NCBI GenBank assembly: GCA_001940825.1
Contig: MSGT01000058.1
Span: 1 to 64,000, forward strand
DNA length: 64,000 bases
Direction of reading: 5' to 3'
Source: Sphaerochaeta sp. Phil3
GTDB lineage: Bacteria > Spirochaetota > Spirochaetia > Sphaerochaetales > Sphaerochaetaceae
Both the position numbers and the translations under genes were made by a program. Numbering within the stretch: position 1 is the first letter of the stretch; each line of letters opens with the position of its first letter. The notes below the pieces were generated by a model. It was not told where the DNA came from and searched no databases. It saw nothing but the letters and a program-made list of their open reading frames with translations. Shown one piece after another: positions 8,684-17,722 of the stretch.

Positions 8684-9229
8684 TCAGACATGATATAGAG
8701 GAGTGAACCTGAAGAAGGTTACACCCCATAGGTAATTGACAGCAGCCAAGCCCAGCGACTGCATATCCAAAAGCACGAACGGAGAGAACCACTCGTACAC
8801 ATAGTCCTTATCCATCGTCCTGAAGGGGGAAGCCTCAAAGTACAGAGAAATCCCGCCAATGCCCTGATGAAGAAACACAAACCCCGCTGTAAGGCTTGGC
8901 GACCAAGGTCCGGGGTTGGAAAGGGTAAACTGCAACGGATTCCAAGAGAACCTGCCAATTTCCAAACAAAGGCCCAAACCAAGACCATCAAACGTCAAAC
9001 CCCTGCCATGACCGTCCCATGAGGCACCTGTCCAAGCCATGAACACAGGATTCAGAAGCGTTGAATCGAACGGCATATACGCGACATCAAAGGACATGGA
9101 GGAAACACTGTCGCTTCTTCCAGACAGCGACACGCCAACACCAAGGTTGAAATAGGAAGAATCGGCCAACAGAGGCAGGATACACACAACAACCAAGACT
9201 GCAATTACTATCCTTCTTTTCACAATCAA
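8684..9229 (-). CDS. Hypothetical exported protein, possible outer-membrane beta-barrel
   Basis: An N-terminal signal sequence (IVIAVLVVVCILPLLADS) is followed by 155 residues rich in glycine, serine and aromatics with alternating patterns (LGVGVSLSGRSDSVSS; GLGLGLCLEIGRFSW). The gene overlaps the end of the phospholipase-D gene by 4 bases (ATGA), so it is translationally coupled to it. It resembles the next gene in size and composition. No catalytic motif is visible and the family is not recognised. Confidence 0.7.
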   Translation of the reverse strand: MIVKRRIVIAVLVVVCILPLLADSSYFNLGVGVSLSGRSDSVSSMSFDVAYMPFDSTLLNPVFMAWTGASWDGHGRGLTFDGLGLGLCLEIGRFSWNPLQFTLSNPGPWSPSLTAGFVFLHQGIGGISLYFEASPFRTMDKDYVYEWFSPFVLLDMQSLGLAAVNYLWGVTFFRFTPLYHV

Positions 9230-10581
9230 CCCCCAAAGTAGTTAATGATGAAACAAAGCTTCCTAAGAAGGGTATGCCACTTGGATGCCTGCTCGTATGA
9301 AACCTGATTGGAATAGTCCTGAATCTCCAGATAATGTTCCTTGAGTTGCATAGCAAGTTCCGGGCTGTCGATCACCAACGTTATCTCCGATGAAATATGT
9401 AGGCTTCTATAGTTGAAATTGGACGAGCCGCAAATAACATACCGTTCATCGACGATCACAAGCTTTTCATGAAGCAACGACCCATTGGTGTAGGCAGAAG
9501 GATCTTCCATCCACACCTCCACTCCAGCATCCAAGAGATCCTTTGTTGCATATTTGGAAGCATTTAGAAGACTCGCCCTGTCGTCGTTTCTGAGAATCAT
9601 CTCAAACTTAACGCCATTTGAGGTACAGGCTTCCACCGCAGCGTACATATCCGAATCCAACGTTGGAAGGAAAGGAAGCATTAGAATCTCCTCCTTAGCC
9701 TGTGCCATGACCGCGCCATACATTGGAGCAATCTCTCCCCCATTTGTCTGGTTGGCAATCCAACCTGAAATCAAGGCCTCTTCATTGGAACCATCTTCGA
9801 CTGCATTGTCCGCAACGGCATCGGTCTCAAGAACGCCGGATTCCAAGCCCAAGGAAGAGATATCCTCCCAGCTGTAGCGATTCCAGAACTCCACGAAGTC
9901 GTCAGTGAGCTTTTTGGCACAGGATGGCGAGTCGAACACATACATGGCATCCCTGTCTCCGCCGTCCTCGATGCTACTCATGGAAATGTAATTCATGTTC
10001 ATACCTCCAACGGCCACATGGACTCCGTCCGAGACGAAGAACTTGCGGTGCTCCCGGTAGAACAGGTTGAATACCCATGGGATTCTGTTTGCAGACATCC
10101 TATTGTACTCAAAAAGATGCACGCCGTAGTCCCTAAGATCATACAAGGTACGCATATGATAGCGGGACTTCGTCATGTCCAACGCACTTGACGAATCTAT
10201 GACGACATAGACATCCACACCAGCCTGGGCTTTGGCCTTCATGGTATCGAAGACATCCTGGTTCAGGTCGCACTCGGATCCAAGGAACACAGTGCAAATG
10301 AAATAATCCTGCGTGTCCTCAAGCATCCTCACAAGGCGGTCCTTCCATTGACTTCCATCGTTGTAAACCGTGGGGAACGTCATCTCTATGCGCTCGTAGC
10401 CAAGGATGTCCAACTTCTCACCAAGTTCCAAGGAAGGGTCCTGCGACACATCATTCATCATCCCCAAGCCCGATACCCTTGAGCCAGACGATACCGTAGA
10501 ACATGAAACGGCCAATATAGCAAGCAAAGAGGCAAGGGCCAAGCAACACAGCGAACTTCTCAACTTCATACCATCAACCAT
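9226..10581 (-). CDS. Phospholipase D / cardiolipin synthase-like lipoprotein
   Basis: Two HKD motifs mark a complete phospholipase D superfamily enzyme: HRKFFVSDGVHVAVGG and HEKLVIVDERYVICGSSNFN. Such enzymes make cardiolipin from phosphatidylglycerol or cleave phosphodiesters. After MVDGMKLRSSL a hydrophobic stretch ends in LLAILAVSC, a lipobox, so the protein should be membrane-anchored by a lipid. The track start at 10707 would overlap the cytidine deaminase gene by 127 bases. The ATG at 10581 shares its A with that gene's TGA stop, which supports coupled translation and this start (451 aa). Cardiolipin synthases normally carry two membrane helices, so the lipoprotein form is less usual. 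Confidence 0.85.
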   Translation of the reverse strand: MVDGMKLRSSLCCLALASLLAILAVSCSTVSSGSRVSGLGMMNDVSQDPSLELGEKLDILGYERIEMTFPTVYNDGSQWKDRLVRMLEDTQDYFICTVFLGSECDLNQDVFDTMKAKAQAGVDVYVVIDSSSALDMTKSRYHMRTLYDLRDYGVHLFEYNRMSANRIPWVFNLFYREHRKFFVSDGVHVAVGGMNMNYISMSSIEDGGDRDAMYVFDSPSCAKKLTDDFVEFWNRYSWEDISSLGLESGVLETDAVADNAVEDGSNEEALISGWIANQTNGGEIAPMYGAVMAQAKEEILMLPFLPTLDSDMYAAVEACTSNGVKFEMILRNDDRASLLNASKYATKDLLDAGVEVWMEDPSAYTNGSLLHEKLVIVDERYVICGSSNFNYRSLHISSEITLVIDSPELAMQLKEHYLEIQDYSNQVSYEQASKWHTLLRKLCFIINYFGG

Positions 10582-11456
10582 CAGAATTCGGTGAAGGAAC
10601 ATGGCATAAGGGTTCCAAACGAATAGTGCCTTACAACCCCACTTGTGCTCGATATCATGTAGACTTGGGCATATGGGGACATGAACTCGGACAAAAACTG
10701 CCTGCACAGTGCGCAGGGAGGCGCAGGGTCGTCTCCAGACGATGCCACGGCCAACAGCTTCAAAGCGGTCTTTCCCTCTGCTGCAATGGCCGCCATTGCA
10801 GCACCACGCTCAGCGCATATCGTGCCTCCAAAGGAGGCGTTCTCCACGTTGCAGCCCTTGTATATGTTGCCTTTTTCAGTAAGGAGCGCAGCTCCAACCT
10901 TGAACTTGGAATAAGGGGCGTATGCATTGTTCTGAACATCCAAAGCATTAAAAAGAAGGTCTCCTATGATGGTCTTATCATAAAAAGCTTTGGTTTCACT
11001 CAAAATTAGGCCATCGAACTCTTCAAGGCTTGAGAATGCAGGGAACTGGAAGAGGGACTTATATAGAATGTCGGCACCAGCTTCAAGCTGGTCTTCAAAG
11101 GAAGCATTGCCAACACCTCCAAAGATTCCAATGGAGCGACACAAAGCATCCTTTGCAGCCCTATGCCCATCAACCGAGGTCTCGACCACCACGCATTCCT
11201 CATGGGACAGGCCAAGCTTCAATGTGCAGTACCTGTAGGCATCGCCATGAGGCTTTCCCCTCTCGACTTCTTTGGCATATACAATGCAATCGAAGTCGCT
11301 GGCACAAAGACCGGCCTTTTCAAGGGCCATGTCAAGCTCTCCTGCATTCTCGGCACCATACACGGCAAGCTTCACTTCCGCCCTTACGGCATTGGACACA
11401 AGTCCAACAATGGATGAGCCAACTGCGCTTATATCAAAAACAATTCCCTTTGTCAT
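10581..11456 (-). CDS. Fusion: degenerate HAD-like domain + cytidine deaminase
   Basis: Residues about 155-291 are a tetrameric-type cytidine deaminase. The zinc and catalytic residues are in TICAERGA and PCALCRQF, and substrate residues in NAYAPYSKFKVGAALL and VENASFGG. It would convert cytidine or deoxycytidine to uridine or deoxyuridine. Residues 1-130 resemble a haloacid dehalogenase (GKPHGDAYRYCTLKLGLSHEECVVVE region), but the nucleophile motif DxD reads DIS, the second-half ExS reads ETS, and the cap is very short. The HAD half is therefore probably not a phosphatase. Stand-alone CDAs are about 130 aa, so this is a true fusion. The gene lies between a dihydropyrimidinase and a PLD gene, which fits pyrimidine salvage or breakdown. 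Confidence 0.85.
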   Translation of the reverse strand: MTKGIVFDISAVGSSIVGLVSNAVRAEVKLAVYGAENAGELDMALEKAGLCASDFDCIVYAKEVERGKPHGDAYRYCTLKLGLSHEECVVVETSVDGHRAAKDALCRSIGIFGGVGNASFEDQLEAGADILYKSLFQFPAFSSLEEFDGLILSETKAFYDKTIIGDLLFNALDVQNNAYAPYSKFKVGAALLTEKGNIYKGCNVENASFGGTICAERGAAMAAIAAEGKTALKLLAVASSGDDPAPPCALCRQFLSEFMSPYAQVYMISSTSGVVRHYSFGTLMPCSFTEF

Positions 11457-11485: not shown

Positions 11486-12880
11486 CTAGCACTGTCTAAG
11501 GAACCTTCCCTCTCCAGGAACTCCATAGTATTCGCCATCCTCCATGATCACCTTTCCACGAAGAATTGTCATGACCGCCCTTCCCTGCACATCAAAGCCA
11601 CGGTATGGGGTGTACAACGAAGCGGAATGCACATTGGAATCATCCAAGGTCCACTTCACAGAAGGATCGAACAACACTATGTCTGCGTCCGTTCCAAGTG
11701 CGAACGAACCCTTGTTTGGATAAAGCCCAAACAGCCTTGCAGGGTTTGTGCTCATAAGTTCGACAAGTTTGGTGAACGGAAGGACCTCTTCGCCAGCATC
11801 CCCATTGGTTTCGACCCTAAACGTATTCAAAAGTGTGAACATCTCTTCAGTGCCGGGGATTCCAGGATAGATAGTCCTGCAGTCGCTGCTCGAAAGCTTC
11901 TGCTCCCTTGTGAATGCACAGTGGTCGGTTGCAATCACCTGGACCTCTCCGTCAACGACGGCTTCCTGCAAGGCCTTGTTGTCAGTCTTGTCCCTAAGAG
12001 GAGGTGTCATGACATAAAGCGATGCATCAGGACCTTCAAGCTTGCTTCTATCAAGGAAAAGGTAGTGGGGAGTCGTTTCCACATAGACCTCCAGACCCTT
12101 CCCTCTAAGTCTGCGCACCGCATCAAGGCCGCATTTGGATGAGACATGAACAACATACAAAGGGCACTCCGCTTCAAGGGCGATTCCTCCAAACAGGTCT
12201 ATCGCCTTGCCTTCAGCCTCCGCTGGGCGCAGCTTTGCATGCGATGCAGGAGAGAAATCACCTGTCCAGTTGTCTGAAAGCTCCTCGATCATGGGATTGA
12301 ACTCGCAGTGTGCGCACACCATGAGACCAAGCTTCTTTGCGTTCTTGAACAAATACAAAAGGTCGTCCCTGTTCTCGATCAGGTATCCGGTGTTCCTGTA
12401 TGTCGTGAATATCTTCAGGGTCTTTATGCCCATCTTCTTGAGGTCTTCAAGCTGCTTTCCAATTGTATTGTCATAGCCATGTCCATAGACCCCTTGGTGT
12501 ATCGTATAGTCTATGGCCATGCCCGGACGCATCTCTTCAAGCCTGTAGTTTGCACTGTCCACAAGACCCATGCCCTTGTTGTGGTCGGCAAAATCCACAA
12601 CTGTCGTCACGCCACCAAACGCAGCCAGCCTTGAGCCTTGCTCAAAGCTGTCGCATGTGACTGTGCCACGGCTTACAAGATGGTAATGGGTATGGGCATC
12701 TATGAGACCGGGCATCACAACAAGCCCTGAAGCATCCACAACCCTTGTACCAGTTGGGCACGAAGATTCATCTATAAAGGCCTCAACCTTGGAGATCCTC
12801 CCTTCTTCCACAAGAAGGTCTGCATCCCAAGATGCCTTGTCATCGACCAAACGACCGTTTTTTATGAGTATGGCAGACAT
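11486..12880 (-). CDS. hydA: Dihydropyrimidinase / D-hydantoinase
   Basis: This cyclic amidohydrolase opens dihydrouracil, dihydrothymine or hydantoins. The binuclear metal site is visible: DAHTHYH, the carboxylated lysine in TLKIFTTYRNTG, HCEF, VVHVSS and the final aspartate in ATDHCAF. I start at ATG 12880 (MSAILIKNGRLVDD), preceded by AAGGAGC; the track start is 25 codons upstream. The resulting 464 aa fits the family. Downstream is a cytidine deaminase fusion, and together they suggest use of pyrimidines as carbon or nitrogen source. Dihydropyrimidine dehydrogenase and beta-ureidopropionase are not in the window. Allantoinase is a less likely alternative. Confidence 0.9.
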   Translation of the reverse strand: MSAILIKNGRLVDDKASWDADLLVEEGRISKVEAFIDESSCPTGTRVVDASGLVVMPGLIDAHTHYHLVSRGTVTCDSFEQGSRLAAFGGVTTVVDFADHNKGMGLVDSANYRLEEMRPGMAIDYTIHQGVYGHGYDNTIGKQLEDLKKMGIKTLKIFTTYRNTGYLIENRDDLLYLFKNAKKLGLMVCAHCEFNPMIEELSDNWTGDFSPASHAKLRPAEAEGKAIDLFGGIALEAECPLYVVHVSSKCGLDAVRRLRGKGLEVYVETTPHYLFLDRSKLEGPDASLYVMTPPLRDKTDNKALQEAVVDGEVQVIATDHCAFTREQKLSSSDCRTIYPGIPGTEEMFTLLNTFRVETNGDAGEEVLPFTKLVELMSTNPARLFGLYPNKGSFALGTDADIVLFDPSVKWTLDDSNVHSASLYTPYRGFDVQGRAVMTILRGKVIMEDGEYYGVPGEGRFLRQC

Positions 12881-12920
12881 ATCAGGCTCCTTTTCAAATA
12901 ACATCCATAATGATACGTTA

Positions 12921-12976: not shown

Positions 12977-14419
12977 CTACTGATGGACCACAGGGTTCTT
13001 CGCAGCCATGACTTCATCGACACGTCCAATGACGGTATGTTCAGGTGCGTTGCGAAGGCTCTGTGCATCCTTGTATGCAATGTCGTGGAGCTCTATCATG
13101 GCATCGCAAAAGTCATCCAGAGTCTCCTTGGATTCGCTCTCGGTTGGCTCTATCATAAGGGCCTCATGCACTATCATTGGGAAGTACATCGTTGGCGGAT
13201 GGTATCCACGATCCAACAGCCCCTTTGCAACGTCTATGGCGGTCACCCCCGTCTCTTCCTTGAGGCGGGAAAGGCTCATGACGAACTCGTGCATACACCT
13301 GTCTCCGTAAGGTACATCGTACATTCCCTTAAGGCGCGCAAGTATGTAGTTTGCATTCAGGACCGCATTCTCTCCGCACTCCTTAAGGCCTTCGCCGCCC
13401 ATTGCAAGTATGAAGGCGTAGGCTTTGAGGAACACCAAGAAGTTGCCCCAGAACGTACTTACCTTGCCAATTGAGCTTTTGCAGCCCCAATCGAAGCTAT
13501 AATCGCCATTGGCGTTCTCAACGACATCGGGCTTTGGAAGGAAGGCGCAAAGGGCCTTCTTGACCATGACAGGACCGCTTCCCGGACCGCCGCCTCCGTG
13601 TGGGGTGGAAAATGTCTTGTGAAGGTTAAGATGCACGACATCGAACCCCATGTCCCCGGGCCGCGCCTTGCCAAGGATTGCATTGAGGTTGGCGCCGTCG
13701 TAGTAGAGAAGTCCGCCGGCTCCGTGCACAAGGGATGCAATCTCAAGGATGTCCTGCTCGAAAAGGCCAAGGGTGCTTGGATTTGTGAGCATGATGCCTG
13801 CAACGTCAGGGCCAAGCTTTGACTTGAGGTCGTCAAGGTCCACGAGCCCGCGCTTGTCGGCCATAACCTGCACCACTTCGAACCCGTTCACGGCGGCGCT
13901 TGCAGGATTGGTTCCATGGGCCGATTCCGGTACGAGTATCTTCGTGCGGGTCACGTCTCCCTTTTCAAGGAAGTAGCTTCTGATTATCTTGAGTCCTGTG
14001 TACTCGCCATGTGCCCCCGCACAGGGCTGGAGGGTTCCCCAATCCATGCCGGTGACGGCGCAAAGCTGCTTGAGAAGGTCATGCATGACACCAAGGCAAC
14101 CCTGAACGGTCGATGCATCCTGCAAAGGATGAATGTCCGTGAAGCCAGACAAGGATGCAACCTGCTCGTTGACCTTTGGATTGTACTTCATGGTACAGGA
14201 TCCAAGTGGATAGAAGCCGTTGTCCACGCCAAAAGCCATTGTGGACAGCTTCGTGTAATGCCTAACGACATCAAGCTCCGACACCTGGGGGAGCGTTGGC
14301 GTATTTTGTCTTCTGAGATTCTCAGGAAGCCCATTGCAAGTGTTTGGAACATCAAGCCTTGGGAGTCTGAAGGAACCTCTTCCTTCCTTTGAAATGTCGA
14401 ATATCGTAGGGACGCTCAT
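12977..14419 (-). CDS. gcvPB: Glycine dehydrogenase (decarboxylating), subunit 2
   Basis: This is the PLP-binding half of the two-subunit P protein of the glycine cleavage system. It decarboxylates glycine and passes the aminomethyl group to lipoyl-GcvH. The PLP lysine is in HLNLHKTFSTPHGGGGPGSGP. The length of 480 aa is as expected for GcvPB. The start overlaps the last bases of gcvPA by 4, so the two subunits are translated together. Confidence 0.97.
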   Translation of the reverse strand: MSVPTIFDISKEGRGSFRLPRLDVPNTCNGLPENLRRQNTPTLPQVSELDVVRHYTKLSTMAFGVDNGFYPLGSCTMKYNPKVNEQVASLSGFTDIHPLQDASTVQGCLGVMHDLLKQLCAVTGMDWGTLQPCAGAHGEYTGLKIIRSYFLEKGDVTRTKILVPESAHGTNPASAAVNGFEVVQVMADKRGLVDLDDLKSKLGPDVAGIMLTNPSTLGLFEQDILEIASLVHGAGGLLYYDGANLNAILGKARPGDMGFDVVHLNLHKTFSTPHGGGGPGSGPVMVKKALCAFLPKPDVVENANGDYSFDWGCKSSIGKVSTFWGNFLVFLKAYAFILAMGGEGLKECGENAVLNANYILARLKGMYDVPYGDRCMHEFVMSLSRLKEETGVTAIDVAKGLLDRGYHPPTMYFPMIVHEALMIEPTESESKETLDDFCDAMIELHDIAYKDAQSLRNAPEHTVIGRVDEVMAAKNPVVHQ

Positions 14420-15768
14420 GCCATGAACCTCCTTGCGGTTTCAATGTAGAAATCCATCTGCTGCTTGGTCCTCTTCTCCGTAACGGCGACGACAAGGATT
14501 CCTTCATCCTTTTCATCGCGTGTCATCTCAGAGAGCTTAACCCCGGCGAAGACATCGTGTTCAAGAAGCTTCGCTACAAGGCCGTCGAGCTTTGAAGGGT
14601 CATCGAACCTAAGTGAGAACTCGCACCAGAAAGGCTTGTCGTATGCAAGGCTTATACCATCGATTCGGGAAAGGCCATCTGCAAGGTAGTGGCTCTTGGA
14701 GTAGCACTGCTCCGCCACCTCCCGGACTCCGTTCCAACCAAGCAACGAAAGATGGACTGCACTTGCAAGTGCCATTAGAGCTTCGTTGGAACAAATGTTG
14801 CTCGTGGCCCTCTCCCTCTTTATGTGCTGCTCCCTTGCCTGAAGCGTAAGGACGTAGCATGTATCGCCGTGGGTGTCCACGGTCCTTCCAACTATCCTTC
14901 CAGGAATCTTCCTCATCAGAGGCTGCTTCACCGCCATGTAGCCACAGTATGGACCGCCAAACCCCATTGGGATTCCAAACACCTGAGTGTCTCCAATGGC
15001 TATGTCAGCACCCCACTCGGCTTGGCTTTTCTGAAGGGCCAAAGACAATGGGTCGGCCTCGATTGCAAGCAGCGCACCTGCATCATGAACCTTGTCTGCA
15101 AGACCTGTATAGTCTTCAATGATGCCGTATTTGTTTGGGGATTGCACGATTACAATTGCAGTTGCAGGATTCAGGACATCGTTTACCGCACACAGGTCTG
15201 TCTGACCATCCTTTTCCGGAACGACATTCACGACATGCCCTCGTCCTTTGGCCCAAGTCTCTACACAAGAGATTGCAAAAGGATGCATGGTTGAAGACAC
15301 CACTATCTCATTGCTTTTCCTTCTGTTGGAGATGCCAAGGGCTGCGGCCTCAGCTGCAGCGCTGGCTCCATCGTAGAGGGAGGCGTTCGAGACATCCATG
15401 CCGGTAAGCGAGCATATCATGCTCTGGTACTCGAATATGCCCTGGAGCACACCCTGCGAAATCTCAGGTTGATAGGGGGTATATGCCGTGACGAACGACG
15501 GAAGAGCCGTTATAGCCTTGACCGCAGCAGGTATTATGTGGTCATAGCTCCCCTCGCCCAGAAACGAAACTCCTTTCACGTTCCTCTCCGCAAGGGCTTC
15601 TATGTGTTCGACAACTTCATGCTCGCTCATCCATTGTCCAACCTGGACAGGTTCCTTGAGCAGAACCTTGTCAGGAATGCACTCAAAGAGTTCTTCAATG
15701 GATTCCACGCCTATGGCCTTTAGCATGAGCTTTTGGTCTTCACTGGTATGGGTGATGTATGGGTTCAT
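14416..15768 (-). CDS. gcvPA: Glycine dehydrogenase (decarboxylating), subunit 1
   Basis: This is the N-terminal half of the split P protein, which forms a heterotetramer with GcvPB. It has the characteristic opening YITHTSEDQKLMLKAIGVES and family blocks such as FLGEGSYDHIIPAAV, TAYTPYQPEISQG and YDGASAAAEAA. The length of 450 aa is normal. It begins 8 bases after the gcvH stop, inside the glyA-gcvH-gcvPA-gcvPB order. The product acts only with GcvPB, GcvH, GcvT and Lpd; the last two must be encoded elsewhere. Confidence 0.97.
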   Translation of the reverse strand: MNPYITHTSEDQKLMLKAIGVESIEELFECIPDKVLLKEPVQVGQWMSEHEVVEHIEALAERNVKGVSFLGEGSYDHIIPAAVKAITALPSFVTAYTPYQPEISQGVLQGIFEYQSMICSLTGMDVSNASLYDGASAAAEAAALGISNRRKSNEIVVSSTMHPFAISCVETWAKGRGHVVNVVPEKDGQTDLCAVNDVLNPATAIVIVQSPNKYGIIEDYTGLADKVHDAGALLAIEADPLSLALQKSQAEWGADIAIGDTQVFGIPMGFGGPYCGYMAVKQPLMRKIPGRIVGRTVDTHGDTCYVLTLQAREQHIKRERATSNICSNEALMALASAVHLSLLGWNGVREVAEQCYSKSHYLADGLSRIDGISLAYDKPFWCEFSLRFDDPSKLDGLVAKLLEHDVFAGVKLSEMTRDEKDEGILVVAVTEKRTKQQMDFYIETARRFMA

Positions 15769-15776
15769 CTATTCTC

Positions 15777-16157
15777 CTAAACCTCTTCAGCAAGGAACTT
15801 CTCGTACTGGGCGGCATCTAGCAGGTCGTCTGCAAGGACGGCATCCTTCATCTTGTAGATGTATGCCTCGTATGGATCCTCGTTGATCTTCTCAGGACTG
15901 CCGTCAAGCTCTTCGTTCACTTCGCAGATCTCACCTGATGCAGGTGACACTATTGGACTTGCAGCCTTTACGGACTCTATGTTGGAGACCTCTTCGCCCA
16001 CCTCGAACGTAGCACCCACTTCCGGAAGTTCAACGTATACTATCTCGCCAAGTGCATCCTGTGCATGGTCCGTAATTCCAATGACGGCTACTCCGTCCTT
16101 CATCATGACCCACTCGTGGTCCTTGCTGTACATTCTGTCTGCCAATATCTTGCTCAT
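15777..16157 (-). CDS. gcvH: Glycine cleavage system H protein
   Basis: GcvH is the small lipoyl carrier that shuttles the aminomethyl group between P, T and L proteins. The lipoyl lysine is in SVKAASPIVSPASGEI. The opening RMYSKDHEWVMMKDG and DHAQDALGEIVYVELPEVG are family blocks. At 126 aa it has normal length. It follows glyA by 23 bases in the same operon. Lipoylation would need LplA or LipA/LipB, which are not seen here. Confidence 0.97.
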   Translation of the reverse strand: MSKILADRMYSKDHEWVMMKDGVAVIGITDHAQDALGEIVYVELPEVGATFEVGEEVSNIESVKAASPIVSPASGEICEVNEELDGSPEKINEDPYEAYIYKMKDAVLADDLLDAAQYEKFLAEEV

Positions 16158-16180
16158 GTAAAACTCCTATTTCGTTTTCT

Positions 16181-17722
16181 TCAGATTCTGTCTTCATCTA
16201 TGCAAAAGTTCTCTTCAAGGAACGCAAGGTCAAGCTGAGGATAGAGCACGAACCTTCCAAGAAGATTGTGTACACGCTCTATTGCCTGGGCCTTGGCGTC
16301 CTTGTCGGTCACGGCCTTGACCTTGCTCAAAGTACCCGCTTTCTCTCCCTTGGTTATCTTTGCCGGCCGCGTGTTCCTGAGTACGAACGAAATTATTGAT
16401 GCAATCTCCTTCATCTCCTCAGGCCCCATGCCAAGCGTCGTCACGGCAGGAGTGCCAATTCTAAGTCCGCTTGTATACCAAGGGCCATTTGGGTCGAAAG
16501 GAAGTGCATTTCTGTTGAGAGTGATTCCGCAGTCTATGAGAGCGGACTCGGCCTGCCTTCCGTTTATCCCAAAGCCAGCAACGTTCAGAAGCATGAGATG
16601 GTTGTCCGTACCGTTGGTCTGAAGCGCAAGTCCCTCGTCCAGGAAAGCCTGTGCAAGAGCCTTTGCGTTCTCCACTACCTTGCGGGCATAGTCTTGGAAT
16701 GCAGTACTTGAAGCCTCTGTGAGGGCAACGGCCTTTGCCGCCATGACATGAGGAAGCGGTCCTCCTATTACGAGAGGACAACCTTGGTCAACGGAATCGG
16801 CAAAGCGTTGCCTGCAAAGAATCATGCCACCCCTTGGACCACGAAGGGTCTTGTGCGTGGTCGTCGTGACGACATCGGCCCATTTGACAGGGTCATAGTC
16901 CCCTTCGAAGACCTTGCCAGCGACAAGACCTGCAAAGTGCGCCATATCACACATTAGGACGGCACCGCAGGAATCCGCAATCTCCCGCATTCTATGGAAG
17001 TTTATCTTCCTTGGATATGCGCTGTAGCCTGTAAGCAGTATGAGAGGTCTGATCTCCTTTGCAAGCCTTTCTATCTCATCGTAGTCCAGAAGACCCGTCT
17101 TCTCGTCCACAGAGTAGGAATAGGCATCGAACATCTGCGCCGATACATTTAGTCTGTATCCATGCGTGAGATGTCCTCCACTGTAATAGTCAAGACCCAA
17201 GAGCCTTTGGCTTCCGGTCCTCTCCCTTATGGTGTTCCACTGCTCCCTCGTAAGAGCCGCAGGGTTGGTCACACCCATCTCTTCAAGGGCGGGGACCTCC
17301 ACCATTGCATTGAGTATGGCCCAGTAGGCACAAAGGTTGGCATCGGCACCGCTGTGGGGCTGTACGTATGCATGGTCTGCTCCAAAGAGTTCACATGCCG
17401 TCTTGCATGCATAGTCCTCGATTGCATCCACGTTGTCGCAACCGGCATAGTAGCGGTGATAGGCAAAGCCCTCCGCATATTTGTCAGTAAGCAGGTTCCC
17501 CATTGAAAGATGCACTGCAGGACTGCTGTAGTTCTCACTCGCAATGAGCTTTAGGTGGCTTCTCTGGTTGTCCAGCTCCCGCACTATACGGCTCGCCACA
17601 AGGGGACTGACCTTCCTGACCTCTTCAAGCTGGGCCAGATACGCAACCATGACGTCATCTACATCCCCGCCAGAGACCTGCATCTTTTCCAGATACCTCT
17701 TCAATGCCGATTCCTTTGCCAT
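16181..17722 (-). CDS. glyA: Serine hydroxymethyltransferase (long form)
   Basis: GlyA interconverts serine and glycine with tetrahydrofolate. The PLP lysine motif is TTTTHKTLRGPRGGMILC; HSGADANLCAYWAI, CDMAHFAGLVA and YSAYPRK are further active-site blocks. At 513 aa it is about 90 residues longer than the common bacterial enzyme. The extra length lies in an N-terminal extension and an insert (ALEEMGVTNPAALTREQWN region), a long form I associate with spirochaetes. It is the second gene of the operon, 33 bases after a 43-aa ORF. It occupies the place where gcvT is often found in gcv operons. Confidence 0.95.
   Translation of the reverse strand: MAKESALKRYLEKMQVSGGDVDDVMVAYLAQLEEVRKVSPLVASRIVRELDNQRSHLKLIASENYSSPAVHLSMGNLLTDKYAEGFAYHRYYAGCDNVDAIEDYACKTACELFGADHAYVQPHSGADANLCAYWAILNAMVEVPALEEMGVTNPAALTREQWNTIRERTGSQRLLGLDYYSGGHLTHGYRLNVSAQMFDAYSYSVDEKTGLLDYDEIERLAKEIRPLILLTGYSAYPRKINFHRMREIADSCGAVLMCDMAHFAGLVAGKVFEGDYDPVKWADVVTTTTHKTLRGPRGGMILCRQRFADSVDQGCPLVIGGPLPHVMAAKAVALTEASSTAFQDYARKVVENAKALAQAFLDEGLALQTNGTDNHLMLLNVAGFGINGRQAESALIDCGITLNRNALPFDPNGPWYTSGLRIGTPAVTTLGMGPEEMKEIASIISFVLRNTRPAKITKGEKAGTLSKVKAVTDKDAKAQAIERVHNLLGRFVLYPQLDLAFLEENFCIDEDRI

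Follow-up and report, generated by a model that had tools for sequence, protein, structure and literature searches.

Cytidine deaminases (CDAs) and haloacid dehalogenase-like (HAD) phosphatases are two enzyme families. In HAD enzymes the first Asp of the DxD motif (motif I) is the nucleophile and the second the acid/base, and the Asp of motif IV is a Mg ligand. The closest described relatives of the two halves of the protein reported here are the homotetrameric cytidine deaminases (TIGR01354; solved structures 1jtk and 2d30) and the C1-capped beta-phosphoglucomutase/CbbY group of HAD subfamily IA (TIGR02009; solved structures 4uar and 3kbb). A literature search for a fusion of the two found no paper on it, a mention in work on deaminase evolution being possible; PMC5270733 and PMC10116470 mention both families separately.

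In the window (the whole 64,000-nucleotide stretch of DNA that was analysed) a single gene joins these two families. Its deaminase half passes the TIGR01354 cut-off and keeps the zinc and catalytic residues of the homotetrameric enzymes, but the protein carries 150-160 extra N-terminal residues. Intact relatives of this N-terminal half match TIGR02009 over its full length, whereas the window remnant matches the second half of the model, with the cap and most catalytic residues absent. The intact HAD-CDA fusions found elsewhere in this bacterial family share the domain order and operon position of the window gene; they differ in that both active sites are intact. The gene and its neighbors are as follows:

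10581..11456, (-) strand: whole gene, 291 aa, pseudo-HAD plus cytidine deaminase; ATG start, open frame
11007..11456, (-) strand: HAD-like half, residues 1-150, cap-less and predicted to be non-catalytic; Pfam HAD_2 8e-9 and alignment with intact fusions
10584..10964, (-) strand: cytidine deaminase half, residues 165-291; TIGR01354 127.2 bits, AlphaFold2 pLDDT mostly >85
11486..12919, (-) strand: dihydropyrimidinase/hydantoinase-like gene, directly upstream, same direction; TIGR02033 385.4 bits, just under the cut-off of 393.25
9226..10569, (-) strand: phospholipase D-like predicted lipoprotein, downstream; PLDc_2 1.5e-32, start chosen at MKLRSSL

The deaminase half matches TIGR01354 at residues 169-289, above the curated cut-off of 113.65 bits. 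The NVEN substrate motif, the CAE and the PCxxC zinc site are all present, and N203, E205, C214, E216, C248 and C251 are all conserved in the alignment, as the original prediction had said of the zinc and catalytic residues. By these residues the window CDA is probably active. The sites are:

10809..10817, (-) strand: C214-A-E216, zinc ligand and catalytic Glu (alignment)
10704..10715, (-) strand: C248 and C251, zinc ligands (alignment)

The HAD half is recognizable but badly damaged. Pfam HAD_2 matches residues 25-110 (8e-9; 36.3 bits against a cut-off of 23.8), and about 145 residues can be aligned without a stop at 32-39% identity to intact HADs; the half falls below every curated HAD cut-off of NCBIfam. 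Compared with the motifs D8, D10, S109, K142, E166 and D167, invariant in 15 of 15 intact relatives, it shows the following:

11427..11435, (-) strand: motif I, D8-I-S10 replacing DxD; first Asp kept, second lost (alignment with intact relatives)
11418..11423, (-) strand: point, at V12/G13 (approximate placing), where the protein lacks ~75 cap residues present in relatives (alignment)
11352..11357, (-) strand: motif II, G34-A35 where relatives have T-S (alignment)
11253..11255, (-) strand: motif III Lys, K68, kept (alignment)
11178..11183, (-) strand: motif IV, E92-T93 where relatives have E-D (alignment)

Of the features that define subfamily IA, homology and the motif III Lys are thus found, and the DxD, the motif II Ser/Thr, the motif IV acidic pair and the C1 cap are missing. 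The DIS in place of DxD, the ETS in place of EDS and the near absence of a cap had been read from the window sequence beforehand, and all three are seen in the alignment. The label "catalytically dead" needs one qualification: the acid/base Asp, motif II, the Mg-ligand Asp and the cap are lost, but the first Asp, the usual nucleophile, survives. Judged by its residues, the HAD half is unable to work as a normal phosphatase. Codon usage in this half is in keeping with the host's (0.041; the highest of 300 random synonymous recodings reached -0.041) and a similar cap-less form occurs in a sister genome; chance or a broken frame is therefore ruled out. A search of the window's own genome (72 contigs) returned no second match with E of 0.001 or lower. 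The AlphaFold2 model of residues 1-156 (pLDDT mostly <50) is uninformative because the relatives in its alignment cover the CDA half only.

A profile search, which had been proposed as a check, found other HAD-CDA fusions in abundance. By hand count, 95 of the 139 genomes of the window's family, which we take to be Sphaerochaetaceae, encode a full-length fusion, that is, a match starting at profile position 3 or lower and ending at 342 or higher of 366. Twelve of the intact proteins, trimmed so as to begin ahead of the HAD motif, are 355-391 aa long. In 97 aligned rows, consisting of the 95 full-length fusions and two partial ones (G387 and G335) with the split or partial G382, G016, G266 and G331 left out, the HAD motifs are kept almost without exception: D8 and D10 in 96 each (one gap), S109 in 96 (one G), K142 in 97, E166 in 96 (one K) and D167 in 97. 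The Cys, Glu, Cys and Cys of the CDA site are kept in 97, 97, 96 and 96 rows. The ancestor was therefore apparently a true phosphatase-deaminase. The original prediction had argued against such a pair and had named retention of the HAD nucleophile in homologues as evidence against its own view; the nucleophile is retained in 96 of the 97 rows and relatives with the same fusion retain both active sites. By its motifs, the family fusion is a phosphatase-deaminase pair that has decayed in the window. One intact fusion, L006:1492-2580 (-) of G028, has CAEQ for CAER and NFEN for NVEN in its CDA half.

Outside the family, the full-length fusion was not encountered among the matches listed (E to ~2e-39) in a class sample of 297 genomes, 44 of them in the family. 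A phylum sample of 149 genomes gave just one further match with E of 1e-60 or lower, and that was a separate HAD. Beyond the phylum, where fusions may also exist, coverage was one close-relative contig scan, which returned mostly stand-alone CDAs since its matches stemmed from the CDA half. An apparent HAD fusion in another class (G401) was rejected as an open frame extending upstream of the start of an ordinary separate HAD. Separate adjacent HAD and CDA genes on one strand occur in four genomes of other families (G052, G075, G106 and G038), and in G052 (L024) a dihydropyrimidinase gene also adjoins them.

Within the window's genus the fusion can be followed through its decay. Of 11 genomes, two encode a pseudo-HAD-CDA (the window and G005), six a CDA alone, and three, which are 67-88% complete, gave no match. 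In a tree built from RelA, dihydropyrimidinase (the operon neighbor) and GlyA, with one or two markers lacking in several rows, the window branches first, G005 second, and the six CDA-only genomes form the crown, with 100/100 support at both steps. G005 shares the cap loss and the D10 to S change and has lost more of the core than the window, which fits one death in the genus ancestor followed by erosion. We infer a single event, independent deaths being the other possibility. Six of the 11 genomes have lost the HAD half yet keep the CDA, so the CDA does not need it. Three g11 genomes (a fourth g11 case, G319, is cut off by a contig edge) and one g14 genome also have a CDA that no HAD half separates from the dihydropyrimidinase gene. 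The leader of the CDA-only proteins was searched for a fossil of the HAD tail; the resemblance is too weak to claim one.

Branch lengths, computed on a fixed topology for the window and eight intact relatives, separate the two halves. The CDA branch of the window is normal (0.37 vs 0.13-0.58 in the relatives), but its HAD core branch is 3-11 times longer (1.63 vs 0.14-0.61). By stretch, the window HAD branch measures 4.2 (residues 1-40), 1.3 (41-112) and 0.97 (113-150), rough values from short stretches; the last 34 aligned columns (113-150) are near-normal, the relatives having 0.09-1.0. Synonymous sites were saturated in two comparisons with the window (pS 0.72-0.87), making dN/dS unusable for the window itself.

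Either half has decayed elsewhere in the family tree. All three genomes of genus g5 (G014, G033 and G365) encode an intact CDA preceded by a dead HAD half that lacks the cap. These proteins (L026, L028 and L123) resemble the window protein in both respects, but they arose independently on the tree, and the HAD half of L026 and L028 lies below Pfam detection. Comparing G014 with G033 gives a dN/dS of 0.26 in the HAD half (95% 0.14-0.48; all 2000 bootstraps below 1) and of 0.09 in the CDA half (0.03-0.21). A dead half can thus still be constrained. The mirror image is found in genus g9 (G035 and G329): an intact-looking HAD half with its motifs is joined to a CDA half that, although its frame is open, has lost the zinc and catalytic motifs NVEN, CAE and PCxxC. 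The mirror-image loci are L128:1390-2418 (-) and L129:1121-2164 (-). G035 and G329 share 77% identity across the HAD half and 35% across the CDA half, and each of these genomes encodes another CDA elsewhere.

The reading to which we give a probability of roughly two in three is that the window gene encodes an active CDA carrying the degenerating HAD remnant of a former bifunctional enzyme, in a dihydropyrimidinase operon. In the family ancestor both halves would have worked, with what was probably a nucleotide phosphatase supplying the deaminase in that operon. The ancestor of the window's genus would have lost the cap by deletion, along with catalytic residues, and the N-terminal half, once a C1-capped (beta-phosphoglucomutase-like) HAD phosphatase, would have been eroding since, until it was gone in the crown of the genus. 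The window protein would work as a cytidine deaminase through its C-terminal half alone, and the remnant presumably does no more than help the chain to fold. It was perhaps kept for a while as a scaffold, and "mere relic" may be too weak a description given the purifying selection on the independently dead g5 half.

The main rival holds that the dead HAD core is retained to stabilize or assemble the CDA tetramer, two lineages having independently dropped the cap and active site and kept the core. The constrained g5 half, the CDA-proximal part of the window remnant, which changes slowest, and the dead CDA half that g9 retains on its intact-looking HAD are consistent with such a scaffold, but we regard it as unlikely for the window, where the HAD branch is so long, and the CDA occurs without any HAD half in the six congeners and in the g11 and g14 genomes. 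The regulatory or nucleotide-sensing role that had been proposed at first finds no support and is highly improbable: D8 and K68 survive and the reading frame of the half is unbroken, but the parts that would bind a nucleotide (cap, motif II, Mg-ligand Asp) are gone, and the half is eroding fast and is absent from the genus crown. That an assembly or binning error removed the cap from an intact gene is barely credible, even for one contig of a 72-contig assembly, as motifs I, II and IV carry substitutions besides the deletion and the sister genome G005 encodes, at this position, a comparable form that also lacks the cap.

Returning to decay of a once bifunctional enzyme, a broader reading, tentative and somewhat against the odds, is that either half of the fusion can die while joined (the HAD at least twice, the CDA once) and that the dead half is selected as a structural partner before its final loss. 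If true, this would be a natural series from a bifunctional enzyme to an enzyme plus pseudoenzyme. One bacterial lineage holds the graded series of separate genes, intact fusion, one half dead and half lost, plus the mirror-image case, and it can therefore be tested whether a dead domain is kept as a scaffold or simply lingers.

In the window, 29 bases separate the dihydropyrimidinase gene from the start of the fusion gene, and another 11 lie between the end of the fusion gene and the start of the lipoprotein gene. Among 97 fusion loci, some with short flanks, 84 have dihydropyrimidinase upstream and 79 have the phospholipase D-like gene downstream; both neighbors are present in 74 and neither in 8. 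These neighbors suggest a role in the salvage or breakdown of pyrimidines, in which the intact HAD would be a nucleotide phosphatase, and the intact fusion speaks for a phosphatase that acts together with cytidine deaminase and dihydropyrimidinase. The solved structures nearest to the separate HAD of G052 are of the CbbY and beta-phosphoglucomutase types, so a nucleotide is a guess at the substrate of the intact HAD. For the lipoprotein gene (9226-10569) the best named model is cardiolipin synthase, far below its cut-off (102.4 vs 290 bits); across the family this phospholipase D-like gene holds the same operon position beside the pyrimidine genes. In congeners glyA adjoins the dihydropyrimidinase gene with no gcv genes between them; in the window gcvPB, gcvPA, gcvH and glyA-like genes (12977-17722, (-) strand) lie directly upstream of it.
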